DNA from: Desulfuromonadales bacterium
Lineage (GTDB): Bacteria > Desulfobacterota > Desulfuromonadia > Geobacterales > Pseudopelobacteraceae
Direction of reading: 5' to 3'
Length of the DNA stretch: 64,000 nucleotides
Assembly: GCA_013349405.1 (NCBI GenBank)
Contig: DUZS01000003.1
Coordinates: 62,001-126,000 of the forward strand
Of this stretch, positions 47,035 through 63,959 are shown in pieces. Below the pieces are notes generated by a model that ran no database searches, was not told the DNA's origin, and was given only the letters and a program-made list of their open reading frames with translations. Position 1 is the stretch's first letter. The number at the start of each line of letters is the position of its first letter. The position numbers were made by a program, and so were the translations under genes.

Positions 47035-47421
47035 TCAGGCGGGCCTGAACTGTAAACCTTTTATCATTGAAAAATGCTTTGCATTGCCGCTGACAAGTAC
47101 ACGCCCGGTAATCAAAGCAGTGGCAGCAATAAGAGCATCGGCAATCAAAAGACCATGGCTCAAACGATATGATTTCAGGAGTGTGATAGCAGACTTGGTA
47201 ATTTCCGGAGTAAGAGGTAGTGTAGCAAACCGCTCCAGCAGCTTTGACAGGTTTTGCAGTTCGGCCTTATTACGGCATCCGACAACAAGCTCTATTTCGG
47301 TAACAGCGCTGATATACGTCGAACCTGATTTCAAGATAGCGTTCACCTGCGCCACAGCACCATTATCTCCACGTCCGACATTTACAATGATGTCGGTATC
47401 CAAAAGAAGCTCATTATTCAT
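47035..47421 (-). CDS. VapC-like PIN-domain RNase toxin
   Basis: 128 aa PIN domain: acidic residues in LLLDTDIIVNV, SAVTEIELVVG, GLLIADALIAATA and ALITGRVLVSGNAKHF. These are the expected Mg-binding positions. It overlaps the antitoxin gene by 8 bases. Likely a tRNA- or rRNA-cleaving toxin. Confidence 0.88.
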   Translation of the reverse strand: MNNELLLDTDIIVNVGRGDNGAVAQVNAILKSGSTYISAVTEIELVVGCRNKAELQNLSKLLERFATLPLTPEITKSAITLLKSYRLSHGLLIADALIAATALITGRVLVSGNAKHFSMIKGLQFRPA

Positions 47422-47671
47422 GTCTGCTCCAGGCAGATTCCCTCTGTTCCCGCACCCATCCGGCAGCATCCTTCATATCCGTCCGGTCTTTCCATATCCC
47501 GACAAAACAATCGTCTGAAAGCGTTTGAACCGCCATCTCTTTTTTCTTTCCGTGCCCGGTTGCCTGCACTCGGTATTTTTTCTTCAGAAACTGATAAAAA
47601 TCAGTTACTTCCCGCCGGGCCTGCTCGGGAAGGCTGGAAAGATCAAGAGTCGATGCGCCTGCTGCTTTCAT
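47414..47671 (-). CDS. DUF2281-like antitoxin partner of VapC
   Basis: 85 aa; LSSLPEQARREVTDFYQFLKKKY is the DUF2281-type helix found in antitoxins of PIN toxins, and the C-terminal tail ends next to the toxin. The start at 47671 has GAGGTG 4 bases upstream. Confidence 0.8.
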   Translation of the reverse strand: MKAAGASTLDLSSLPEQARREVTDFYQFLKKKYRVQATGHGKKKEMAVQTLSDDCFVGIWKDRTDMKDAAGWVREQRESAWSRHE

Positions 47672-47704
47672 GTTACACCTCACAACTGCATGAATAATCA
47701 AGAA

Positions 47705-47920
47705 TGGCGTTACTTTATCGCACATGGATTGTCAAAGCAATCCCGGATTTCTTACATTCGCATTGCCCGTGCGCTTGAGGTGGAAATCAAGGATTTATTT
47801 GAATTCGCCCATCTGCAGGCGGGTGCCATGAAGGTTGAGGAAATCGAACAGCTTCTGGCGGGTGCGGATGAGGTGAAGAAGAGGATGATTATGAAGATCT
47901 TGCGGGCGGTGGTACGGTAG
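47705..47920 (+). pseudogene. Remnant of an XRE-type HTH regulator
   Basis: The frame carries ISYIRIARALEVEIKDLFEF followed by an acidic helix ending in MKILRAVVR, the C-terminal half of a small XRE regulator. The N-terminal HTH start (usually LRxLRxxxGLSQ) is missing or replaced by unrelated residues (MNNQEWRYFIAHGLSKQSR). It is divergent from the VapBC-like pair, so it may be debris of a former neighbour. Confidence 0.55.
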
Positions 47921-51802: not shown

Positions 51803-52561
51803 TCACTTGCCCGACCGGTTCAGTTTACCTACCCGGAACTGTTCATCAAAGTAGCCCCGCACCTTGTCCGGATCAAAATCGAGGAAAGTCCCGCCGGAGG
51901 CGAAATGCTGGATGAAAACCCGCCCGACCGCGTAGGAAAACGCCCCGTTTACCGCCGGCATGGCGGCAATCGAGAAGGCGCCGAGAAACGGTATCAGCTT
52001 GGCACTGCTGGCGCCCAGGTAGGTGCTGCTGATACCGCTTGCAAGAATGGCAATAGCGGATTTGGAACGCTGGGTGTCAAAGGGTATGTTGTACAGTGCG
52101 CAGAGTCTTTTCAGCATCATCAGCTGCATCGCCATAAATCCGGCCATATCCACCAGAGGCACCGGTATTAAACCTGTCGCGGCAGACAATGCCGAATATC
52201 TATACACGGTGGCCATGGCACTCCGGAACGGCTCTTCCATTTCTGTATGCTCAGGCGCTTCCGCCGTAAGAGCGTCATGAGCCGCTGATTCAGCCGCAAA
52301 CTCCAACGCAGCTATCTCCATTGCAGACAGCTCTCTTTCCACAACAGGTTCCTGTGCAACCGGCTCAACGGATGCGGACGGAGAACCGGCGTCCTGAATT
52401 ACCGCCTCCACCGTTTCCGCCGCCATATCCAGCGGTGGCGCTGCAATTTCGGCAACCGGGTCCTGCAGCAGAGACTCAGTCTCCGGCGCATCCTCCTGCT
52501 GTGTCTCGTAAATCCGCTTTCTGGTGCGATTTATTTTTAGCTTTTCAGCCGGCTGACTCAT
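51803..52561 (-). CDS. DUF697 membrane protein, last gene of the ParA operon
   Basis: 252 aa. Residues 1-130 are a Pro/Ala/Glu-rich soluble region; residues about 135-235 are a DUF697-type domain with hydrophobic hairpins (SAATGLIPVPLVDMAGFMAMQLMMLKRLCALYNIPF and AKLIPFLGAFSIAAMPAVNGAFSYAVG). It lies 19 bases after parA1. DUF697 proteins are often linked to dynamin-like or GTPase proteins; their function is unknown. Here it could anchor part of the assembly to the membrane. Confidence 0.78.
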   Translation of the reverse strand: MSQPAEKLKINRTRKRIYETQQEDAPETESLLQDPVAEIAAPPLDMAAETVEAVIQDAGSPSASVEPVAQEPVVERELSAMEIAALEFAAESAAHDALTAEAPEHTEMEEPFRSAMATVYRYSALSAATGLIPVPLVDMAGFMAMQLMMLKRLCALYNIPFDTQRSKSAIAILASGISSTYLGASSAKLIPFLGAFSIAAMPAVNGAFSYAVGRVFIQHFASGGTFLDFDPDKVRGYFDEQFRVGKLNRSGK

Positions 52562-52580
52562 GACGCTCCCTACCTGTTAT

Positions 52581-53531
52581 TCATGTTTCCAGACTAATCC
52601 CCAGCAATGCGGAGACGTGCCGGTCATAATCATCCCTGGCGCTGTTTTTGGCATAGCGGGAAAAAACTGTTTCCCCGGCAGCCAATACCTTTGAAAATTC
52701 GCTGCTGGTGCGTATCACCGCCAGCGGCAGCTCCGGATGCCTCTCCCTGATTCTGGCCAGAGCGGTGCGGGAGACGGTTTCCCGCTGGTCATAGCGGGTA
52801 TAGAGGATTCTTACGGCTGGATGAGGCAACCCGAAGGTATCGCAGATCGAATGGATCTCGCCCAGCGTCAGATCAAGCCCTTTCAGAGAAAAGGCATCAC
52901 TCCCCACCGGGACCACGATCGTTTGAGCGGCACAGATGGCAGATATAACGGCAATCCCGAGCGAAGGCGGGCAGTCAACGATGACGGTGTCAAAGCCGAG
53001 AACGCGCAGCTGGTCACACACACCCCTGACCGCTTTTTTCTGTGATCCCGGATTAAGCAGGCTGGCATCGAGAAGTGCATTTTCAAGCGAAGACGGTAGT
53101 ATGCTCAGATGGCTGCTCAATTCGACCAGCGCATCGGCGAGCAGCTCTTCAGGACGCTGCCAGATATCGAAAAAAATCGGGTCGTCATCCTCGGGGACCG
53201 CTCCCAGCGCAAGACTGGAAGATCCCTGGGGGTCGAGATCGAGGACGCAGGTTTTGAAACCGTATTGGGCAGCACGCACTGCGGTAGAAATGGTGCCGGT
53301 GGTCTTGCCGATGCCTCCGCGCATCGTCGTATGCGCAATCACCCGGAACGGGTAAGAGACACCCTCTTCAGTCAGAAAACGTCTGACGCCCTCGGGAGTA
53401 ACGCCGTTGGTTGCGGCATTCAGACGCACCAGCTCATCACCCTGGAAGCGCTCCTCCAACTCCCCGATAGAGATACGGCATTTTGCTGCCAGTTCGCGGG
53501 AGGTCAGAAGTGAATATCGTTCAGTTGTCAT
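52581..53531 (-). CDS. ParA-type ATPase with N-terminal HTH-like region (ParA1)
   Basis: 316 aa. The N-terminal 60 residues (LLTSRELAAKCRISIGELEERFQG) look like a MerR/ParA-type HTH. The ATPase has the deviant Walker A RGGIGKTTG, switch region DLDPQGSSSLALG and DTVIVDCPPSLG. Such ATPases move or position DNA or protein complexes on the nucleoid or at poles. It follows the giant coiled-coil gene by 57 bases. Confidence 0.88.
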   Translation of the reverse strand: MTTERYSLLTSRELAAKCRISIGELEERFQGDELVRLNAATNGVTPEGVRRFLTEEGVSYPFRVIAHTTMRGGIGKTTGTISTAVRAAQYGFKTCVLDLDPQGSSSLALGAVPEDDDPIFFDIWQRPEELLADALVELSSHLSILPSSLENALLDASLLNPGSQKKAVRGVCDQLRVLGFDTVIVDCPPSLGIAVISAICAAQTIVVPVGSDAFSLKGLDLTLGEIHSICDTFGLPHPAVRILYTRYDQRETVSRTALARIRERHPELPLAVIRTSSEFSKVLAAGETVFSRYAKNSARDDYDRHVSALLGISLET

Positions 53532-53588
53532 TGATTAATCCCTCCGGTCATGCATGCATAGAGCTCCATGCCTGAGATCACCGGTCTT

Positions 53589-56500
53589 TTATTCTTCCAG
53601 ATGCACTACAAAGGCGCTGATTTTGTTCGACGGCTGCATGCGGTACACCGTCAGTTTCGCCCGGGGGCCGACACTGTTGCGCTGAATAATAAAGCCCTCC
53701 TTCCGCTCGCTGGAAACAGGCGTGTACTCGCTGCTGCCGGCCATCTCCCGCAGTGCTGTTTGCATAAAAGCGTCCGCAACCACATGGTTTTTCTTTGCCA
53801 GAACCTGAATTGCCTTGATTTGACCGGCAACACGATAAATACGAACGTCATGTGCTTTATCAATAAAGCGTTCCCAGCCGGGGGTCCGGGCCGGGTATGT
53901 GCTGTCTCGCCCGGCGGCGCTCACAAATGTCGGCAGAGGCGAATCTGCCCCAGGAGCAGCTTTTGTTGCGGCCGTCATTTTTTTCTGTATCGGCGCAGGT
54001 GGTGCCGGAACTGCCGCCTTCTTCTCCACCGGTGGCGTTTCAGCAACCGGCGCCGGCGTAACTACCGGCACAGTCGCTTTTGAGCTTTTCGCATCAGATT
54101 GAGTCTGTGGTTTTCTTTTAAACAGATACACTCCACCAGCCACAGAACTTAGCAGAACAAGGGCGATGAGCAGAAAAATCCAGAACTGAGAGGCGGAAGG
54201 ACTCTTTTCTTCCTGCTCCGGTGGGATATCTTCGCTATATGTCTGCGCTTGCTCTGCTGGTATCTGCTCGTCGGTGGGCTCGGGCTGCTGCTGCTTCCTG
54301 GCAACTTCGGCGGATAAAGTGGCAAGGCGCGATTTGGGGCTTTCGCTAACTTCCGGAGCAATGTCTTCGCTATCCGCCGGTGGCTTCTCGGCTTTTTTGC
54401 GTCTGGCGAGCTCGGCCTGTAAATGTTCCTTTGCCGCCTCGGCGGCTATTTCGGCCAGATGCAATCTCTCTTCCGCCTCCTTGCGCTCAGCACGTTCAAC
54501 TTGTAACTGTCCGGTAACACTCGCCAATTCCTGGGTGAATTCTGTGATTGTCTGTTCAAGGCTGTTTTTCACCCACTTCTGTTCAGCAAGCTCGGCCTGC
54601 AGCTGTTCGTTGGCCGCTTCAGCCGCTATTACGGCCTGATGCAGTTTTTCTTCAGCATCTCTGTGCTCGGCACATTCAGTGTGCATCTGCTCGCTGACAC
54701 TCGCCAATTGTTGCTTCCGTTCGGCAAGTTCCTCCTGCAGCTGATCGTTGGTTGATTCCGCTGCTATTACGGCCTGATGCAGTTTTTCTTCCGCATCTCT
54801 ATGTTCAGCACATTCACTCAGCAACTGATCATCGTAAGCTGCTGTTTTCTGCTTCAATCCGGCAAGTTCAGCTGCGACGGCTATGAAGGCCTGATTCAAT
54901 TTTTCTTCGGCATCTTTCTGTTCGGCAAGTTCAGCCTGCAACCGTTCATTAGCAGTCTCAGCGGCTATCATTGCCTGATGCAGTTTTTCTTCGGCATCCC
55001 TGTGTTCGGTAAATTCAATCTGGGACTGTTCGGTGGCAGCCTCCAGCTTCTGCTTCAGTTCAGCACGTTCAGCCTGCAACTGTTGGTTGGCAACTTCTGC
55101 CATTGTCATTTCCTGCAGCAGTTTTTCTACAGCCGCTGTGCGCTCGTTACGTTCAGCCTGCAGCTGTTCAGTAAATGTTTCAGATTCCAGCCTCCGCTCT
55201 GCAAGCTCAGCCAGTAATTCTTCTTTGGCAGATTCAGCAGCTAATATGGCGCGGTGTAAATTTTCTTCGGCATCCTTGTGTTCGGTAAATTCAACCAGAG
55301 ACTGTTCGGCAACAGCCTCTAATTCCTGCTTCCGTTCAGCACGTTCAGCCTGCAGCTGTTCAGCAATAGTTTCACATTCCAGCCTCCGCTCTGCAAGCTC
55401 AGCCAGTAATTCTTCTCTGGCAGATTCGGCAGCTATTATGGCCCGGTGTAATTTTTCTTCGGCATCCTTGTGTTCGGTAAGCTCACTCTGCAGCTGTTCG
55501 TTTACAGACTCCAATTCACGCTTTCGTTCACCATGTTCAGCCTGAAACTCCTGGTTGGCAGCTTCGAGTGTGTTCATTACCTGCAGCAGTTTCTCTTCGA
55601 CATCAGTGCGCTCGGCACGTTCTGTCCGCACCTGTTCTGCCAAAGACTCAGATTCCAGCCGCCGCTCGGCAAGCTCAGCCAGTAATTCTTCTTTGGCAGA
55701 TTCGGCAGCTATTATGGCTTGATGCAGTTTTTCTTCGGCATCCTTGTGTTCGGCACATTCAACCTGCAACTGTTCATTGGCAGCCTCTAATTTATTTCCC
55801 CACTCGGAACGCTCGGACTGCGCCTGTTGGTTGACATCCTCTGCTGCTGTTATGGCATACTGCAGTTTTTCTTCGGTATCTTTGTGCGCGGCACGTTCTG
55901 CCTGCAACTGCTCAGCAAGTATCTCAGATTCCCTTATCCGCTCGGCAAGCTCGGTCACGTGCTGCTCGTTGGCAGATTCAGCGGCTATTATGGCCTGAAG
56001 CAATTCTTCTTCGGCATCTTTGTGCTCGGCAATTTCGGCCTGCAGCTGCTCTTTGTCCGCTACAGCGGTTATTATGGCCTGATGCAGTTTTTCTTCGGCA
56101 TCTTTGTGCTCAGCAAATTCAACATGCAGCTGCTCACTGACAGCCTCCAACTCCTTGTGCCGGGCAGCAATCTCAGCGCGCAACTGCTCAGCGGCAGCTT
56201 CTGCAGCAGATAGCGCCTCCTGCAATTTTTCTTCGGCATCTCTCCGCTCAGCAAGTTCAGTCAACAGCTGCTGGTTGGCTGAGGCTGCGGTAATCCGGGC
56301 CTGTTTCGCTTTTTCTTCGGTATCTTTACGCAGCTGCTCAGCAGCTGCTTCCAATTCCAGTCTCTGTTCAGCAAGTTCAGCCTGTAACTGTTCTTTGGCG
56401 GATTCGGCCGCTATTACAGCTCGATGCAATTTTTCTTCGGCATCTTTGTGCTCGGTAAATTCAATGTGCAACTGTTCGTTGACATTCTCGAGCTCCTGCT

Positions 56501-57941
56501 TCCGCTCAGCAAGCTTGGCCAGCAAACGTTCGTTGGCAGCTTCGGCAGCTATTCTGGCCTGCTTAAATTTTTCTTCATTATCTTTACGCTCGGCACGTTC
56601 AATCTTCAGCTGCATAACGACAGTCTGCAATTCGAGCGTTCTCTCTGATACGGCCTGTTCAAGGTTTTCGCATTTATGGAGAGCCTCTTTCAGCAATTTG
56701 TTTTCGAAAAGATCATCCCCCACGGACTGGATCCGGGAAGCGGCCTGTATCTGGTCAGCGGCCGGATCTGCTGATTCCGGCGAAGCGCCGCCCTTTGAGG
56801 CTTTTCCCGACTTCTTTTTCAGCGGTTTTTCACTTTTGGCCTGATCCTCGCGCAGCGTTGCAGCGGCCTGATCAGCATCGGTCAGGCTGAAGATGTCACT
56901 GATGCGCGTTTCAGCCATTAACGGCAAGGTGCCTTGTTCCCCACTCACAGGCGTATCCTGAGGCTCGGTCTCTTCGGGCAGCAGCTCTGTCTCCTGCTCC
57001 GGAGCAGAGGTTTCCGGGCTATCAGCATCAGCGGAATCAGTCATTAGCGGGTTCTTCAGCCACTTTTCAAGAACCTCGGCCAGCTGGGCTTTCTTTACCG
57101 GCTTTACCAGATAGTCATTCATTCCGGCCTCGAGGCATTTTTCGCGGTCACCAGGCTCTTTGTTGGCAGTCAAAGCGATGATCGGCACGTCATGATTGAG
57201 AACTCCGGACTGCTTGTCCCGGATTCTGGCGGTCGCTTCCAGGCCATCCATCAGCGGCATCAACCAATCCATAATCACCAGGTCATAGTGTATCGACGCA
57301 AGTGCAGTAATCGCTTTCAGGCCGTTCGGAGCAATATCAACGCTGTAACCAAGATTTGACAGTCTCGTGAGCGTCAACTGCTGGCTGATCAGGTTGTCTT
57401 CAACGAGGAGGATACGCGGCTGCCCGTTTTCATTGCCTGGCAGAGGGGGGGGCAAATCGGGGAGAGTATCTTCATCCATAGTAGCAGCAGCGATGCGTGC
57501 TTCCAGCGAAACAGGAACAGGTGCAGCAGCTGTCTGCTGAGGCGGATGGGGGAATCCGGCATCCATAAACTGCTCTCCCCCGATAATCCGTTCCACCAGG
57601 GAAGTGATCTCTACACCGAGTGTCTCATCCGGTTGATGCAAATTTGCAAAACCGTTGAAGAGTCCCTTTTGCGGGCTGACTCCGACATCGCCTTCGTAGA
57701 GCATGATGAACGCGGGGGCCTCGCTGCCGAGCATCTGACGCATATAGCGCACGACGCTGTCGCAGGCGACGCCCGCGATAGATCCCTGGATTATGACTGT
57801 GGCGGGGCTCTTTTCAAAAACTTCATTCAAGCCGTCATCGAAATCGGTTGCGAGAACGATTTCTGACTTGATCAGAGGCTGAACGAATTTTTGAATCAGT
57901 TTTGCTTTGGGGTTATTTGATATGATAAGCAGGCTGAGCAT
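53589..57941 (-). CDS. Giant receiver/coiled-coil/membrane protein
   Basis: 1450 aa. Residues 1-125 look like a degenerate receiver; residues about 173-293 are a canonical receiver (RILLVEDN, VIMDWLMPLMDG with Asp225, IIALTAN and a Lys in LVKPV). Residues about 415-1180 are an uninterrupted coiled coil made of about twenty imperfect repeats with the theme EEKLHQAIIAAESAKEELLAEL, also visible as DNA repeats. A single membrane helix (FWIFLLIALVLLSSVAGGVYLF, about 1253-1274) leads to a Pro/Ala linker and a C-terminal domain of about 120 residues, probably periplasmic. The design recalls AglZ/FrzS (pseudo-receiver plus coiled coil) and polar landmark proteins, but I know no homologue with this exact order. 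Confidence 0.9.
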   Translation of the reverse strand: MLSLLIISNNPKAKLIQKFVQPLIKSEIVLATDFDDGLNEVFEKSPATVIIQGSIAGVACDSVVRYMRQMLGSEAPAFIMLYEGDVGVSPQKGLFNGFANLHQPDETLGVEITSLVERIIGGEQFMDAGFPHPPQQTAAAPVPVSLEARIAAATMDEDTLPDLPPPLPGNENGQPRILLVEDNLISQQLTLTRLSNLGYSVDIAPNGLKAITALASIHYDLVIMDWLMPLMDGLEATARIRDKQSGVLNHDVPIIALTANKEPGDREKCLEAGMNDYLVKPVKKAQLAEVLEKWLKNPLMTDSADADSPETSAPEQETELLPEETEPQDTPVSGEQGTLPLMAETRISDIFSLTDADQAAATLREDQAKSEKPLKKKSGKASKGGASPESADPAADQIQAASRIQSVGDDLFENKLLKEALHKCENLEQAVSERTLELQTVVMQLKIERAERKDNEEKFKQARIAAEAANERLLAKLAERKQELENVNEQLHIEFTEHKDAEEKLHRAVIAAESAKEQLQAELAEQRLELEAAAEQLRKDTEEKAKQARITAASANQQLLTELAERRDAEEKLQEALSAAEAAAEQLRAEIAARHKELEAVSEQLHVEFAEHKDAEEKLHQAIITAVADKEQLQAEIAEHKDAEEELLQAIIAAESANEQHVTELAERIRESEILAEQLQAERAAHKDTEEKLQYAITAAEDVNQQAQSERSEWGNKLEAANEQLQVECAEHKDAEEKLHQAIIAAESAKEELLAELAERRLESESLAEQVRTERAERTDVEEKLLQVMNTLEAANQEFQAEHGERKRELESVNEQLQSELTEHKDAEEKLHRAIIAAESAREELLAELAERRLECETIAEQLQAERAERKQELEAVAEQSLVEFTEHKDAEENLHRAILAAESAKEELLAELAERRLESETFTEQLQAERNERTAAVEKLLQEMTMAEVANQQLQAERAELKQKLEAATEQSQIEFTEHRDAEEKLHQAMIAAETANERLQAELAEQKDAEEKLNQAFIAVAAELAGLKQKTAAYDDQLLSECAEHRDAEEKLHQAVIAAESTNDQLQEELAERKQQLASVSEQMHTECAEHRDAEEKLHQAVIAAEAANEQLQAELAEQKWVKNSLEQTITEFTQELASVTGQLQVERAERKEAEERLHLAEIAAEAAKEHLQAELARRKKAEKPPADSEDIAPEVSESPKSRLATLSAEVARKQQQPEPTDEQIPAEQAQTYSEDIPPEQEEKSPSASQFWIFLLIALVLLSSVAGGVYLFKRKPQTQSDAKSSKATVPVVTPAPVAETPPVEKKAAVPAPPAPIQKKMTAATKAAPGADSPLPTFVSAAGRDSTYPARTPGWERFIDKAHDVRIYRVAGQIKAIQVLAKKNHVVADAFMQTALREMAGSSEYTPVSSERKEGFIIQRNSVGPRAKLTVYRMQPSNKISAFVVHLEE

Positions 57942-57969
57942 GTCGACCCTTTGAGTCGTTTTGTAGGTA

Positions 57970-60348
57970 TTACGGCAGCGTCCAGGTCGCCGACTGCTTC
58001 ATTTTAATCCAGTAGCCCATACCCGGTTCGAGAGTGGTCAAACTGTTTATCTGCCTGTTGGGAACGTATGAAAGCCATTGACCGCTGCTCCAGCCCCAAA
58101 TGCTTTCTATTAATGTGGTTATGGAACTGATGGCATGGTGCACCGGTTGTGAATACACAGCGTCGTAGCCAACCAGATTCCAGCCCGCCGCAAGTGCAAG
58201 AGGTTTATCCGACTGTCCGGCCCCCAGGCCGCTCAAGGCGAATGATACGGTGGGGTTGGCCGCGTCATTGCCGGTGGCACCCCAGTGCAGTTTAAACAAG
58301 GCATCCAGCCCGATCTCTTCAGCTTTACCTTCACCTGTCCTCAATTGTTCCAGGGCAAAAGAATTGACCCGCTCCAGCAGTTCCTGGTAAAGCGGTGCCT
58401 CCGGGTCAGCCAGAAACGCTTGCAGCGAATTTTCAAATTCGAGCTCAACGATCTTCGCCTGTGCAGAGAGGTCATTTTCGTGCTGGTGCTGCAACGCCTC
58501 AGCGCGCAGCTCCTCCGCAGTCCGGTAGTTGGCCGGGCGTGGATAAATGCCGCCGGTGATCATAAGGCGGTCGTAAAACCAGCTGATCATATCCTTCTTC
58601 ACGATCTCACGGCGCTTGTTTGTTTCAAGGTCGAAGCGAGCCCATTCGAGCTGCTGGTGCATCTGCTCCGGCTCAACGCCGAACGTGGCACACCACTTTT
58701 GGGCAAGCGGCTCTTCCAGTCCTTCTTTCTGCCAATATTCCGCCACCGCGCCACTTAAGACCGGCGGTTCAGCAGGGGCAGCAGGCGTTTCTGTTACTTT
58801 TTCTTTTTGGAGCGCAGGATTTTGCTTTTCTTTTGCCACACTGCTGCTGAAGATGATCGGTTGTGGAATCGGCGCTCCGGACGCCGGTCTCTCCGAACGC
58901 CAGATAGACACTTCCGGCAGGTGCCCCTGCGCGGGCTCCCCGCCCCCTCTCACTCTCGCGGCGTATCGGGAACAGAGGTAATTGTTCATCCTGTAGCTGA
59001 ACCCGGCAGGGTTGACCCGGCTGTCCCGTTTCTTGTCAAGGAGGTATAAATATCCTTCCGTAACAAGTACAAGCAATGATTCCCGCACCGTATGACTGTC
59101 AATAGTGAGGTCTCTGCTGATAGTTTCAACGTTTGAGCAGCCTTGAGCAACCTCATACAGATACACCAGAATCATCCCCTGCTCCTTCGACAGAGGTCTC
59201 CTCCGTGACTGGGATGAGAGATCCTCACACTGTGGCTGCGGATGAACCAGGATTTGAGAAAGTGATTTTTCAACCGGCACGGCGACTTTCGCAGGGAGGG
59301 GGGCTTCCACAGCAGTCACCGGTGTTGACACGTTTACGGGAGCCGGGGTGACGACAGGCGCCGGTGTCGCCACGGGAGCTGACTTGACGCCGGGAGCCGC
59401 GATATTGACAAGGGCTGGCTGATGATGGACAAACGGAGCGACATCAGGGGCCTGCAGAGCGGCATGAGCAGCAACCGGAGCATAAGAGGGCAGCTTGAGT
59501 TTGGCTTTCCGTGAAAAAAAGTCTTCAATCAGGTGATCATCATCGTCATCGTCGCCGCTGGAATTTACCGTGGCACCAGAGGCTGACGGGGCAACCGTCA
59601 CCGGAGCAGCAACAGCCTCAGGCATGGTCACCGAGTGAACAAGCGGTGTGACAACAACCTCACGTACATCCGGAGCCGGGGCAGCCGCACTGACAGCAGC
59701 TTCAGGCTCTGCGACAGCATCCGGCACATCTTCAAGTGCATTTTCGAGGACAGGTTCATCAATATCAATGACCGGCAGCTGGTCTACAGCTTCCCCCTGC
59801 GCATGACCTTCCGTCGGCACGATGTCCATCTCAACAGTCAGCTGTTCGAGTAATTCAATGCTCCATCCTGTTGTCAGCTCGCTTGATATGGCGTTCAGCT
59901 GTTCCAGTTGATCCGGGTCAAGATCCTGAGCCTGCTCCTGTTCCGTTTTGTCCGGCATGATCTCTTTTTTTGGAGCAACGCTTTTAAGGCTGACGGGAGT
60001 TTTTGCGGTCACAACCGGAGCGGCAACCGGCTTCCTGGCAGCAGCGGGGGCGGCAGGAGCGACAACCTGTTTTTTCGTGGCAACCGGAACGGCAACGGGG
60101 GGGACAACCTGCTTTTTCCTGGTAACCGGAGCAGCAGGAATAACCACCTGTTTTTTCGTGGCAGCCGGAGCAGTGGCAGGGGCCCGCTTGGCAACAGTCG
60201 GGGCGGCCGGTGCTTCAGCGTGCTGTTCGGCTTCCGCCGAAGAAAAATTGTCATGCAGACTGTCAACAGCAGATTTGAGGCCGGGCTCGTCGAAAAACCG
60301 GGAAAAAAGAGCATCAAAACCTTTGCCACCGCGAACTTTTGTCATCAT
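57970..60348 (-). CDS. Putative winged-helix DNA-binding protein with GWNLVGY-type C-terminal domain
   Basis: 792 aa. Residues 1-370 are Ala/Pro/Val-rich and low complexity with acidic patches, no signal peptide. Residues about 385-450 form a winged-helix-like region (RRPLSKEQGMILVYLYEVAQGCSNVETISRDLTIDSHTVRESLLVLVTEGYLYLL). Residues 535-620 (AEYWQKEGLEEPLAQKWCATFG..IYPRPANYRTAEEL) recall the C-terminal parts of plasmid/ICE replication proteins, a weak impression. The last 70 residues (AAGWNLVGYDAV...LEPGMGYWIKMKQSATWTLP) match a domain usually found at the end of exported Geobacter proteins. It overlaps parA2 by 4 bases and is its likely partner. Confidence 0.75.
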   Translation of the reverse strand: MMTKVRGGKGFDALFSRFFDEPGLKSAVDSLHDNFSSAEAEQHAEAPAAPTVAKRAPATAPAATKKQVVIPAAPVTRKKQVVPPVAVPVATKKQVVAPAAPAAARKPVAAPVVTAKTPVSLKSVAPKKEIMPDKTEQEQAQDLDPDQLEQLNAISSELTTGWSIELLEQLTVEMDIVPTEGHAQGEAVDQLPVIDIDEPVLENALEDVPDAVAEPEAAVSAAAPAPDVREVVVTPLVHSVTMPEAVAAPVTVAPSASGATVNSSGDDDDDDHLIEDFFSRKAKLKLPSYAPVAAHAALQAPDVAPFVHHQPALVNIAAPGVKSAPVATPAPVVTPAPVNVSTPVTAVEAPLPAKVAVPVEKSLSQILVHPQPQCEDLSSQSRRRPLSKEQGMILVYLYEVAQGCSNVETISRDLTIDSHTVRESLLVLVTEGYLYLLDKKRDSRVNPAGFSYRMNNYLCSRYAARVRGGGEPAQGHLPEVSIWRSERPASGAPIPQPIIFSSSVAKEKQNPALQKEKVTETPAAPAEPPVLSGAVAEYWQKEGLEEPLAQKWCATFGVEPEQMHQQLEWARFDLETNKRREIVKKDMISWFYDRLMITGGIYPRPANYRTAEELRAEALQHQHENDLSAQAKIVELEFENSLQAFLADPEAPLYQELLERVNSFALEQLRTGEGKAEEIGLDALFKLHWGATGNDAANPTVSFALSGLGAGQSDKPLALAAGWNLVGYDAVYSQPVHHAISSITTLIESIWGWSSGQWLSYVPNRQINSLTTLEPGMGYWIKMKQSATWTLP

Positions 60349-61112
60349 AAGAGCCCTAAAACTTCATTAGCAAGTGATCGGAATTTATGGCTGGCAGTAC
60401 AGGAAGGAGAATGCCGTAAAACAGTCATCTTTTGCGCGACGGCCTCTTTTATTTTCGTGTCTGTATGAATAACGGTGGAAAACACTTTAGCCGCAAACTT
60501 ACGCTGGATATGGTCAACTGACGCACGGCTGATGCTCGTGCGGCCGTCCGCCTTGTTAATAACTGCTTTGAGGAAACGCAGCTCCGGGTTAACACGCGCA
60601 GCGATCGAGCTGATCGCGTCAAGAGCGGCAACAAAACCGTCCAGTGAATAGCGGCAACCGGCTTCGATCGGTATAATGGCACAATCACTGGCAATCAGGC
60701 TGTTGATTGTATAGAGCCCAAGGGAGGGATTGTTATCTATGATGGTGACATCATAGTGCTCAGTGGCATATTTCCGCATATTCTTGCGTAATATCTGATA
60801 CGACTTTTTTACGTCCTGGTAAAGGTCGACTTCAAGGTGGGTTATCTGGGGGGAGTTAATTACCACATCAATATTTTCATACGAAGTTTTATGAATACAT
60901 TTATCCGCCGGAGTATTATGTGCATAGATGTCATACAAGGATTTCGGCTCGGCAATGTCACCTTCGGGAGTAAAAATAGATGACGTATTACACTGGGGGT
61001 CACAATCGATAACCAGCACTTTCTTGCCGCGAGCAGCCAGTGCATGCGCAAGATTAGTGGCAATGCACGATTTGCCGACCCCGCCCTTATGGTTAATAAC
61101 GGATATAATCAA
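60345..61112 (-). CDS. ParA-type ATPase, first gene of the operon (ParA2)
   Basis: 255 aa. Starts MIISVINHKGGVGKSCIATNLAHALA with the deviant Walker A, then VLVIDCDPQCNTSS and DVTIIDNNPSLGLYTINSLIASD. The start TTG at 61112 is chosen because GGGAG lies 8 bases upstream and the protein then begins directly with the first strand; the longer frame would run through the promoter. It overlaps the winged-helix gene by ATGA. Similar to plasmid and chromosomal partition ATPases. Confidence 0.9.
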   Translation of the reverse strand: MIISVINHKGGVGKSCIATNLAHALAARGKKVLVIDCDPQCNTSSIFTPEGDIAEPKSLYDIYAHNTPADKCIHKTSYENIDVVINSPQITHLEVDLYQDVKKSYQILRKNMRKYATEHYDVTIIDNNPSLGLYTINSLIASDCAIIPIEAGCRYSLDGFVAALDAISSIAARVNPELRFLKAVINKADGRTSISRASVDHIQRKFAAKVFSTVIHTDTKIKEAVAQKMTVLRHSPSCTASHKFRSLANEVLGLL

Positions 61113-61136
61113 TGGGTAGCTCCCTGCAGACCAATA

Positions 61137-61209
61137 ATATTTTGCGAGACAATATATCTGTAAATGGCTGGCTGTCAACATATTTTGCCAGTATACATAT
61201 TTTGGCAGT
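61137..61209 (-). promoter_or_regulatory. ParA-operon promoter bracketed by three 15-bp repeats
   Basis: On the - strand TTGACA (61173-61178) and TATATT (61151-61156) are 16 bases apart, a good housekeeping promoter. Three related 15-mers surround it: 61137-61151 (ATATTTTGCGAGACA), 61178-61192 (ACATATTTTGCCAGT) and 61195-61209 (ACATATTTTGGCAGT). The second touches the -35 and the first the -10, as operators of an autoregulated partition operon would. Confidence 0.72.
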
Positions 61210-61341: not shown

Positions 61342-63282
61342 TTGAAGAAGATATTACTGGTTGGTTTACCGAATGTGGGGAAAAGTACTCTTTTCGACCG
61401 ATTAATTACCGACAAAATCAGGACCGGCTCTTACCCCGGCTCATCAGTTGGAGTGAGAAGGGGCGATTTGAAGATTGATGGCGATGATGTTGAAATAATT
61501 GACATACCCGGTGTCTGTAACCTTTTTTTCAACGAAGACAATGAACGGGTCGCGAGAAACATCCTTATTGACGAAATGCCGGATCTGATTATTCAGGTCT
61601 GTGATGCCAAAAACCTTAATCGCTCGCTGGCGCTTACCGCCCTGCTCGCCGAGCTGTCCATCCCCGTGGTAATTGCCGTGAATATGGTGGATGAGGCTGC
61701 GCAAAAAGGGATCAAGGTCAAACGGCACAAGTTGGAAGAGATGCTGGGAGCGCCCGTTGTTGAGACGATTGCATCTGAAGGCGTCGGCGTTCCGACGCTG
61801 ATTTCAGCTTTGAGCAGGGGGCAGGTACCCGCTTACCCCTCCAGACTGTCGGCGACTCTTGTTGCCGCAGTTAATGATTTGACTGGACTGATCGGGACAG
61901 GGGCGTGTGAGGCGCGGGAAAAAACGGTTCTGGCCATTTTTTCACTCGCCGGTGACCACGCAACCTCCCAATGGGCACTGCAAAAAAGCGGTCTGGAGAA
62001 CGATGAGGCAGCCGGTCACATTATAAAAAATACGACGCAAACATTCCATCGCCATCTCGGCCTTGTTTTTTCCCGGGCAAACGACCTCTGGGCAGAGGCG
62101 CTCTATATGGAGTCGATCTATGTAACACCGGTAACATCAACGCCGCTGTTAAACAGGCTCGGTGATATGGCCTTAACTCCGGTAGCCGGATCGGTAATTC
62201 TTGTCGCACTGATTGCCCTGCTCTACTTCATCGTCGGAAAATTTGCTGCCGGTATCGTCGTTGATTTTCTGCTGAACGATTTTTTCGGCGCCATGGTGGC
62301 CCCGCACCTGAAAAACGTGGTAGCAGTCATCCCGTATGCCTTTGTGCGGGATATTATCGTCGGCGAATACGGTTTGTATACCATGGCGCTTGTTCCTGTC
62401 CTCGGCCTGTTATTGCCGATCCTCACGGTGTTCTTCTTTACGTTCGGCTTTATTGAAGATTCAGGATATATCCCCCGCCTCTCAATTCTGCTGGACAGAA
62501 CTTTTCGGAAAATCGGGCTGAACGGTAAAGCAGTGCTTCCGATGGTGCTTGGTTTTTCCTGCGTCACCATGGCAACAATATCCACCAGGGTGCTCGATAA
62601 CAAAAGGGAGCGCTTCATCGCCATCTTTCTGCTCTCGCTCGGCATCCCCTGCTCTGCCAAATTAAGTATCATTCTGGCTATTCTGGCACAGGTTTCGTTT
62701 GCCGGTTTTCTGGTGGTGTTCGGGGTTATTTTTTCTTTAACTGTCGTTACCGGCTTTGTGCTGAATAAACTGATGCCTGTAGAAACCTCTAATTTTATTA
62801 TGGAAATCCCGCCAATCCGCATCCCGAGCCTGAAAAACGTGCTTGCAAAGACCTCCTACCGGTCATTGCTGTTTCTCCAGGAGGCGGTGCCGCTTTTTCT
62901 TATCAGTGCTCTGGGACTGTTTTTTGCTGATAAAATCGGCCTGCTGACCATTATAGAAACCCTTTCGGCGCCGATTATCAGCGGTTTCCTCGGATTGCCG
63001 CCTCAGTTTGCAGAATCACTCATCATGGGTTTTATACGGGGTGAAGCCGGGGTTGCCGTGCTGAAAAAGATGGTCGATTCCGGGGTGATGAATCATGCGC
63101 AGCTGGTTGTCGCGATGGTTGTAACAATACTTTTCATCCCCTGCGTCACGAATTTCATGCTCATAATTAAAGAGCAGGGAGCGCAAAAGGCACTCGCAAT
63201 TATCGTTTCTGTGACTACCTGCGCCATTGTGACCGGCGGCATCCTGAACCATTTTTTCCGCTGGGCTAATATTGTATTTTAA
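61342..63282 (+). CDS. feoB: Ferrous iron transporter FeoB
   Basis: 646 aa. An N-terminal GTPase domain (GLPNVGKSTLFDRLI, IIDIPGVCNLF, NMVD) is followed by a spacer and membrane helices with two Gate motifs (MVLGFSCVTMATISTRVL...LGIPCSAKLSII and later LIMGFIRGEAGVAVL). It is shorter than E. coli FeoB. The start is TTG at 61342 with AAGGAATAG upstream. No separate feoA gene precedes it. Confidence 0.93.
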   Translation: MKKILLVGLPNVGKSTLFDRLITDKIRTGSYPGSSVGVRRGDLKIDGDDVEIIDIPGVCNLFFNEDNERVARNILIDEMPDLIIQVCDAKNLNRSLALTALLAELSIPVVIAVNMVDEAAQKGIKVKRHKLEEMLGAPVVETIASEGVGVPTLISALSRGQVPAYPSRLSATLVAAVNDLTGLIGTGACEAREKTVLAIFSLAGDHATSQWALQKSGLENDEAAGHIIKNTTQTFHRHLGLVFSRANDLWAEALYMESIYVTPVTSTPLLNRLGDMALTPVAGSVILVALIALLYFIVGKFAAGIVVDFLLNDFFGAMVAPHLKNVVAVIPYAFVRDIIVGEYGLYTMALVPVLGLLLPILTVFFFTFGFIEDSGYIPRLSILLDRTFRKIGLNGKAVLPMVLGFSCVTMATISTRVLDNKRERFIAIFLLSLGIPCSAKLSIILAILAQVSFAGFLVVFGVIFSLTVVTGFVLNKLMPVETSNFIMEIPPIRIPSLKNVLAKTSYRSLLFLQEAVPLFLISALGLFFADKIGLLTIIETLSAPIISGFLGLPPQFAESLIMGFIRGEAGVAVLKKMVDSGVMNHAQLVVAMVVTILFIPCVTNFMLIIKEQGAQKALAIIVSVTTCAIVTGGILNHFFRWANIVF

Positions 63283-63296
63283 GGAGAGTGTAACCT

Positions 63297-63959
63297 GTGA
63301 AAACGATACATGTAACGGATGAGGTTCTCGAGACCGTCTGGAGATTTGAGGAGAGGGGTGGCTGCACAGTAGAAGATGTTAAAAAAGAACATGAAGATGC
63401 ATCCGGATATGTCGTCAATGATGAACTGTTATCGGAGCTGGAAAAAGACGGTCTGGTCACAATACGCGGAGCGCTGATAGCGCTCACAACAGCCGGCAAG
63501 GCGCACGCCCTCCCGGTTATCCGCAGGCATAGAATTGCAGAACGACTCCTCGTCGATGTCCTCGGTATGCCGTTTGATGCCATCGAAGAGTCGGCCTGTG
63601 AATATGAACATACACTGGCGCCCGGGCTTACCGAGGCGATCTGCACCCTGCTCGGGCACCCGCGGGAGTGCCCCCACGGCTCGCCCATACCTGAAGGTGA
63701 CTGCTGCCGGCGTTCCGAGCGCTCGGTGGAGTCATTCGTCAAACCGCTGAACGAGATGGAGATCGGTGATTCGGTGCGCATCTCGTTCATCCGCAAGGAC
63801 GACCCGGTGCTGATTGGCAAGCTGGTCTCCTTTGGTGTTTCGCCGGGAAAAACGATAAAAATCCGCCAGAAGTTTCCCGCGTATGTCATTCAGATTGAGC
63901 ATTCCCAGATCGCACTGGAGCAGGATATTGCAGCAGACATCTACGGGGTGAAGATATAA
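63297..63959 (+). CDS. DtxR-family repressor fused to FeoA domain
   Basis: 220 aa. A winged helix (ETVWRFEERGGCTVEDVKKEHEDASG), a DtxR metal-binding middle (RHRIAERLLVDVLGMPFDAIEESACEYEHTLAPG and HPRECPHG) and a C-terminal FeoA/SH3-like domain (LNEMEIGDSVRISFI...LVSFGVSPGKTIKI). It probably senses Fe(II) (or Mn) and controls feoB, 14 bases upstream, which also supplies the missing FeoA function. The start is GTG at 63297 with AAGGAGAG. Confidence 0.9.
   Translation: MKTIHVTDEVLETVWRFEERGGCTVEDVKKEHEDASGYVVNDELLSELEKDGLVTIRGALIALTTAGKAHALPVIRRHRIAERLLVDVLGMPFDAIEESACEYEHTLAPGLTEAICTLLGHPRECPHGSPIPEGDCCRRSERSVESFVKPLNEMEIGDSVRISFIRKDDPVLIGKLVSFGVSPGKTIKIRQKFPAYVIQIEHSQIALEQDIAADIYGVKI

Follow-up and report, generated by a model that had tools for sequence, protein, structure and literature searches.

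Two ParA modules, one with a receiver-bearing membrane protein, co-occur within a genus of Geobacterales and may form a positioning system

The five genes described here lie on the minus strand of a 64,000-nucleotide stretch of DNA from a Desulfuromonadales bacterium of the Geobacterales (GenBank assembly GCA_013349405.1, contig DUZS01000003.1, positions 62,001 to 126,000), which we call the window. In gene order they encode a ParA-type ATPase (ParA1), a winged-helix protein (P2), a large receiver-bearing membrane protein (P3), a second ParA-type ATPase (ParA2) and a protein with DUF697, a domain of unknown function (P5), spanning positions 51803-61112 with intergenic gaps of -4, 28, 57 and 19 bases. 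Our strongest statement is that these genes make up two ParA modules, ParA1-P2-P3 and ParA2-DUF697, which, often together with a motor, are held together by something that favors their joint presence. The best explanation, which we hold tentatively as a serious possibility just short of probable, is a two-ParA system that places a membrane machine and includes a receiver-bearing scaffold. An earlier note, made from the sequence alone, had read the genes as one operon of this general kind; open reading frame (ORF) coordinates, the gaps and Pfam matches for both ParA proteins, the receiver and DUF697 bear out the five-gene set, and the locus is not due to chance, because orthologs are present in five other genomes.

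We searched 78 genomes with ParA2, P2, DUF697 and ParA1: the window's own (G000, an assembly that is 96% complete), 38 others of its genus and the rest from the family and order (genomes carry G numbers and loci L numbers throughout). Close orthologs of ParA1 (78-93% identity) were found in five other genomes, all in the genus, and close orthologs of ParA2 (83-93%) in six other genus genomes. All five genes were contiguous and in order in G000 and G008 only, while in G004, G014, G021 and G030 they formed two unlinked loci, one with ParA1-P2-P3, transcribed divergently from feoB, and another with ParA2-DUF697. The single conserved operon that had been proposed therefore did not hold up, being contiguous in two of the six carrier genomes and split in four. 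The G008 operon does not lie beside feoB, and in G021 both P2 and P3 are truncated at the ends of contigs. Our tree groups G000 with G008 as sisters (support 0.954), and thus the five-gene stretch probably represents two modules that were joined in their common ancestor.

Even when unlinked, the two modules kept company. ParA2-DUF697 was present in 6/6 genomes with ParA1-P2-P3 versus 1/33 others (39 genus genomes; Fisher p 2e-6), although this value, like the 1e-5 given for the motor below, is not corrected for descent and overstates independence because carriers cluster in the tree. A dedicated positioning-type system, as the earlier note proposed, is thus plausible without being encoded by one conserved operon. 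Gene order, which that note had offered as a check, gave a mixed answer: only two genomes have all five genes in order, and ParA2-DUF697 stands by itself in G012 as well as in unrelated bacteria, both of which argue against such a system, whereas within the genus ParA1-P2-P3 was never found without ParA2-DUF697.

The tree was built from parA-parB plus atpA for 37 genomes (atpA for 30 of them, with none for G004 and G014; G002 and G024 were left out). Carriers fell into three groups, for which the best tree needs three Fitch changes, compared with a mean of 5.68 for random sets of six tips, among which three or fewer changes arose in 0.1% of 1000 draws. The group of G000, G008 and G030 (0.995) was nested among the non-carriers G031 (1.0) and G019 (0.998), and the grouping of G004 with G014 was firm (1.0). 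Nodes separating G021 from other carriers were weak (0.07 to 0.84), and atpA alone placed G021 next to G032 (0.961). It is therefore safe to say that the modules co-occur in at least two lineages; the best tree has three.

The ParA2-DUF697 module, rare and scattered, also occurs well beyond the genus. ParA2 carries the ATPase domain typical of ParA/MinD positioning systems (Pfam AAA_31, 4.9e-27); Pfam returned ParA-type families alone, and the helix-turn-helix once attributed to it was not recovered. Where the ParA/MinD signature is xKGGxxK[T/S] (PMC10241942), ParA2 reads RGGIGKT, the signature position being Arg in 9 of 13 aligned rows and Lys in the other four. A scan of genome contigs from 84,980 species, which required a peptide-pattern match and hence undercounts, gave 14 loci: six from the genus, two weak ones (26%) that we dropped and six distant ones (45-54%), all from metagenome-assembled genomes, of Bacteroidales, Proteobacteria, Desulfobacteraceae, Desulfobacterales, Thiotrichales and Thiomargarita. 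A ParA2 profile run against an even sample of 395 genomes of the phylum gave one match at the strict limit of E 1e-70, the window's own, and a search of plasmids gave no match at 1e-30.

A DUF697 gene adjoined ParA2, in either order, at 12/13 loci (7/7 genus genomes and 5/6 distant loci); at L123 no DUF697 gene was found near ParA2. The domain is matched in P5 at 2.4e-9, and the DUF697 search also matched G076, outside the genus (39%). Near the N-terminus these proteins have a basic motif in common, for example TRKRIYE or RQRRRLYE. A widened pattern, set after a first look, found it in 10/12 ParA2-adjacent and 4/4 motor-adjacent proteins, in one further Thiomargarita copy and in 0/2 other G012 copies, against a control of 30/585 genes of the same loci, DUF697 proteins included; the first, narrower pattern gave 9/12, 3/4, one and 0/2, with 26/587 in the control. 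The motif in L124 was read across a masked stretch. ParA partners act via a positively charged N-terminus (PMC10241942, PMC13170346). In our set a basic N-terminal peptide is present in the DUF697 partner and, weakly, in P2.

A second DUF697 gene stands beside a motor-like pair. In G004, G008, G014 and G021 it lies divergent beside genes for a MotA_ExbB protein (~550 amino acids [aa]) and an OmpA/MotB-like protein. In the one pair scanned, the MotB-like protein matched ZorB models (best 1e-15) and the MotA-like protein matched no ZorA model; a profile search of the PDB with the ZorA-like alignment returned nothing at 0.01. The genus search found a MotA/ZorA-like protein in 5/6 carriers (G004, G008, G014, G021 and G030; motor loci L084-L087 and L207) versus 0/33 other genomes (Fisher 1e-5).

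The earlier note's description of P3 as a membrane protein with a receiver was confirmed by a Response_reg match (residues 177-291, 1.5e-25) and a hydrophobic segment. The five full orthologs share a receiver-like N-terminus, the receiver, the membrane segment and the C-terminal domain; in G008 the acceptor Asp of the receiver is replaced by Glu. The C-terminal domain, which from the topology is presumably periplasmic, is present in 65/78 genomes and was modeled with a predicted local distance difference test score (pLDDT) of 91.9, yet a fold search yielded no clear structural relative, the best Z of 6.8, to a DUF4309 protein, lying in a range that the tool calls common.

The same note had proposed a polar organizer or track with the long coiled coil of P3 as its functional core. 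Judged by our composition rule rather than by a coiled-coil predictor, coiled-coil-like regions span residues 394-1186 in G000, 362-1380 in G008 and 378-760 in G030, and the G021 fragment looks coiled-coil-like by eye. By the same rule none was found in G004 and G014, two of the five full orthologs, in which receivers and Pro/Glu linkers occur instead (three receivers by Pfam in G004 and three acceptor-type motifs in G014). We therefore rejected the track as the core of the system and consider this reading very unlikely. The coiled-coil-like region repeats with a period of 46 residues, seen in part as tandem repeats of 138 bases in the DNA, and because of this its length can drift.

P3 also has smaller kin. 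Of 20 P3-family loci, 14 encode small proteins of 413-544 aa (among them L150, L151, L152, L153, L156, L157 and L159). We read the sequences of six loci whole and aligned five small proteins to the P3 N-terminus; all five had the same receiver-like domain and, by eye, a hydrophobic segment, and two members scanned gave no Pfam match at 0.01. Some of the small genes precede a gene for a secreted protein (of two scanned, one had LysM above the cut-off and the other just below it), and some of the loci also contain a T2SSE-type ATPase (one scanned). Aligned in this way, the P3 pseudo-receiver is common to a small order-wide family, and by sequence P3 is an enlarged member of that envelope family, which combines a pseudo-receiver with a membrane segment and has no Pfam name.

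ParA1, also of Pfam AAA_31 (6.1e-43), conforms to the signature xKGGxxK[T/S] and is followed by P2, a partner of putative DNA-binding type, as in plasmid cassettes. P2 has no significant Pfam family. Its predicted model is poor overall (mean pLDDT 62.7, predicted template modeling score 0.29) and fairly confident in the winged helix, whose nearest folds are ArsR/MarR-type proteins (Z about 10); the winged helix noticed earlier is thus upheld by model and fold comparison. P2 appears to be a relative of short ParA-adjacent proteins of 484-499 aa, which adjoin ParA paralogs (44-47%) in G014, G020, G023 and G032; a fifth P2-like gene of the genus, in G008, is cut at a contig end. A plasmid of Desulfosarcina sp. 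BuS5 encodes, two genes after traF, a ParA (36%) and then a protein matching 148 P2 residues (27%, 3e-6). No phage relative of P2 was found at 1e-3. The short relatives lack the C-terminal domain of P2 (~90 residues, GWNLVGY...SIWGW...NSL..LEPG.GYWI, window 57973-58242), which stands on a presumably cytoplasmic protein and is of a type known from secreted proteins.

This raises the possibility that the locus serves DNA segregation, with ParA1-P2 as a domesticated or integrated partition cassette and P3 tethering the bound DNA to the membrane. Such a role would fit the pairing of short P2-like proteins with ParA paralogs at four genus loci, the BuS5 pair and the 28 plasmid records that hold a relative of ParA1 (at most 40.6%). 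It would also fit the outcome of a PDB search with the P2 profile, in which AspA of pNOB8 partition (three sequences, best 0.0033) and archaeal TFE (0.036) were the matches at E 0.1 or better, and the small P3-family genes that lie one gene from chromosomal parAB in G051, G054, G064 and G075. However, the AspA match is weak, the operon adjoins feoB in five genomes, and no conserved repeat was found upstream of ParA1: of eight upstream regions sought we found seven (G008 was missing), the CATATTTTG repeats occurred in G000 only, and matches to the repeat pattern within the window were near chance. The repeats, limited to G000, are doubtful as centromere repeats, and we regard DNA segregation as distinctly unlikely.

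In the case of a two-ParA system that places a membrane machine, gene content, modularity, co-occurrence, the conserved peptide and domain make-up are observed, and all activities, the matrix, the cargo and the phosphorylation step are inferred. ParA1 and P2 would be a plasmid-type pair, in which P2 would bind DNA by its winged helix and its N-terminal peptide may stimulate ParA1. ParA2, when it has bound ATP, would occupy a surface, the nucleoid being the likeliest, and DUF697 proteins embedded in the inner membrane or attached to it would stimulate its ATP hydrolysis via their basic N-terminal peptide and would thereby be moved and spaced. The cytoplasmic receiver of P3 may take a phosphorylation signal, and its presumably periplasmic domain may meet an envelope partner. 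The best candidate cargo would be the ZorAB/MotAB-like pair of 5/6 genomes, beside which, in four of the five, stands a DUF697 protein with a similar peptide. The ParA2-DUF697 pair, with its conserved basic peptide, would offer a testable function for DUF697, that of a ParA adaptor. A fuller version, a three-locus envelope machine in which an ion-driven ZorAB/MotAB-type motor is positioned by ParA via DUF697 adaptors sharing an activating peptide and is joined by the receiver scaffold and the plasmid-type ParA pair, is unlikely in our view, and if true would give Geobacterales a new system for motility or envelope work.

Several observations speak against a system that places a membrane machine. 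Membrane anchoring of P5 is only marginally supported, its best 19-residue hydropathy mean being 1.56; two Thiotrichales ParA2-adjacent DUF697 proteins lack the basic motif by the widened pattern; and the first 30 residues of P2 are weakly basic, with a net charge of +1 to +2. The motor pair of G030 has no DUF697 neighbor. No ZorA-like protein was found in the window's own genome, and the ZorA-like profile, in a search without a positive control, matched 0/6 distant ParA2 genomes; because of these absences we rejected the idea that ParA2 is generally partnered by the motor. Part of the co-occurrence is due to shared descent, and G012 has ParA2-DUF697 without ParA1-P2-P3. Furthermore, 9/39 genus genomes miss the mark of at least 90% completeness and at most 5% contamination, and thus some absences may be gaps.

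Alternatively, the two modules may be unrelated ParA systems that became neighbors by chance, ParA1-P2-P3 having its own cargo and ParA2-DUF697 being self-contained and serving whichever locus it joins. That the modules are split in 4/6 genomes would follow naturally, as would the occurrence of ParA2-DUF697 without the rest in G012 and at five distant loci, directly beside a nonribosomal peptide synthetase (NRPS) gene in G012 (L083) and between two NRPS genes at L122 (both by Pfam). We consider this account possible and somewhat doubtful, given that in 39 genus genomes ParA1-P2-P3 never occurs without ParA2-DUF697. A link of DUF697-ParA2 with a motor in one genus and with NRPS genes at two loci suggests that the cargo could be swappable. 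G012 also has a DUF697 gene directly after a polyketide synthase module (L089), and the placing of megasynthases by ParA2-DUF697 is possible.

The features of the locus are collected in Table 1. The promoter-like site upstream of ParA1 came from a scan that was near chance overall (7 sites found versus 5.2 expected), and its TTGACA is aligned in all five genomes compared (G000, G004, G014, G021 and G030).

Table 1. Positions of the five genes and their features in the window
Feature	Position	Strand	Basis
Sigma-70 promoter-like site TTGACA-16-TATATT, 11/12 positions	61149..61178	-	promoter scan
Three ATATTTTG-type direct repeats upstream of ParA1	61136-61208		seen in G000 only
ParA1 ATPase, 255 aa, TTG start, Walker A NHKGGVGKS	60345..61112	-	ORF, Pfam AAA_31, orthologs
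P2, 792 aa	57970..60348	-	conserved peptide at the N-terminus, linker rich in Ala/Pro, then winged helix, helical domain and an additional C-terminal domain
P2 N-terminus, conserved peptide MTKVRGGKGFDALFSRFF that may activate ParA1	60244..60348	-	function putative
P2 winged-helix domain	58945..59187	-	model and AspA profile match
P3 membrane scaffold, 1450 aa	53589..57941	-	ORF, Pfam, ortholog comparison
P3 pseudo-receiver, no acceptor Asp by alignment	57567..57941	-	fold predicted from sequence, no Pfam match
P3 receiver, acceptor Asp in IMDWLMP	57069..57413	-	Pfam Response_reg
P3 repeat-rich coiled-coil-like region, without conservation among orthologs	54384..56762	-	composition rule
P3 transmembrane segment	54117..54179	-	hydropathy 2.48, residues ~1255-1275
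P3 C-terminal domain, presumably periplasmic, conserved across order	53592..53969	-	sequence search
ParA2, 316 aa, N-terminal extension and ParA domain	52581..53531	-	ORF, Pfam AAA_31
ParA2 variant Walker A TMRGGIGKTT, signature lysine to arginine	53298..53327	-	alignment
P5, DUF697 protein, 252 aa, probable membrane-associated ParA2 partner	51803..52561	-	Pfam, gene neighborhood
P5 N-terminus, basic motif INRTRKRIYE that may activate ParA2	52505..52534	-	function putative

At its far end, the DUF697 gene stops 13 bases from a convergent helix-turn-helix/cupin gene. At the other, ParA1 is divergent from feoB, an arrangement seen in five of the six carrier genomes; in the window, feoB and then a gene whose product has an iron-dependent repressor domain and a FeoA domain occupy 61342-63959. 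Elsewhere in the window, a PIN-domain gene (Pfam 3.7e-15) overlaps a gene of 103 aa without a Pfam match (47035-47725), and the two are a probable toxin-antitoxin pair. We also searched the five proteins for defense systems with PADLOC. Only weak matches resulted, the best (3.3e-7) between the Walker A region of ParA1 and a PDC-M28B model, and we rejected a defense-system identity.

In a literature search with most subscription journals outside its coverage, we found nothing on the five-gene set, alone or with motor or gliding themes or, by title among the papers listed, with Geobacter themes, no paper joining DUF697 with ParA and, by title, nothing on topic for DUF697 alone; for motors together with ParA positioning a single paper turned up, which concerns TolQRA. 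The earlier note had named TipN and HubP/FimV among comparable systems. TipN is a polar birth-scar marker, and in HubP/FimV a LysM domain lies inside the membrane protein itself. Pfam gave no LysM in P3, matches up to E 0.1 being Response_reg and a sub-threshold Insulin_TMD alone; LysM sits in separate neighbors of small P3-family genes. In Zorya defense, ZorC, ZorD or ZorE stand beside ZorAB. Our motor pair resembles ZorAB in its MotB-like protein, which matches ZorB models, yet differs in a MotA-like protein without a ZorA match, and ten of the proteins encoded near the motor pair across its five loci, a subset of the neighbors, matched no Zorya model in PADLOC.

AglZ with its AglRQS motor (PMC3169522) and FrzS (PMC1974792) share with some P3 orthologs a coiled coil and a receiver-like domain lacking the acceptor Asp, the latter recognized in P3 by alignment alone, and the AglRQS system also shares a MotA/ExbB-family motor pair, here in 5/6 genomes. 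P3 differs in being membrane-anchored and in its coiled coil, which is not conserved (absent by our composition rule from 2/5 full orthologs); ParA would here replace MglA. PomXYZ of Myxococcus xanthus (PMC13170346) likewise has a ParA-type ATPase that two or more partners activate, which here would be P5 and the motor-side DUF697 protein. Unlike PomX, a coiled-coil activator with a basic N-terminal peptide, P3 starts receiver-like; it also differs in having receivers together with a membrane segment, and its coiled coil is not conserved. The AspA-ParB-ParA partition system of pNOB8 (PMC5120986) also combines a winged-helix protein with a ParA, AspA being the centromere-binding protein, which needs ParB to reach ParA; P2, at 792 aa and with its own conserved N-terminal peptide, matches AspA weakly in sequence. 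A further comparison is with the ParA/MinD systems that position cargo, such as McdAB, ParC and PpfA (PMC10241942), in which a ParA ATPase adjoins a partner with a basic N-terminal peptide. The partners that tie ParA ATPases to cargo differ greatly from one another, and a large number of ParAs are classed as orphans (PMC10241942). In our case the partner is a DUF697 protein, the signature lysine of ParA2 is Arg in 9/13 rows, and two ParA modules stand together with a receiver scaffold.

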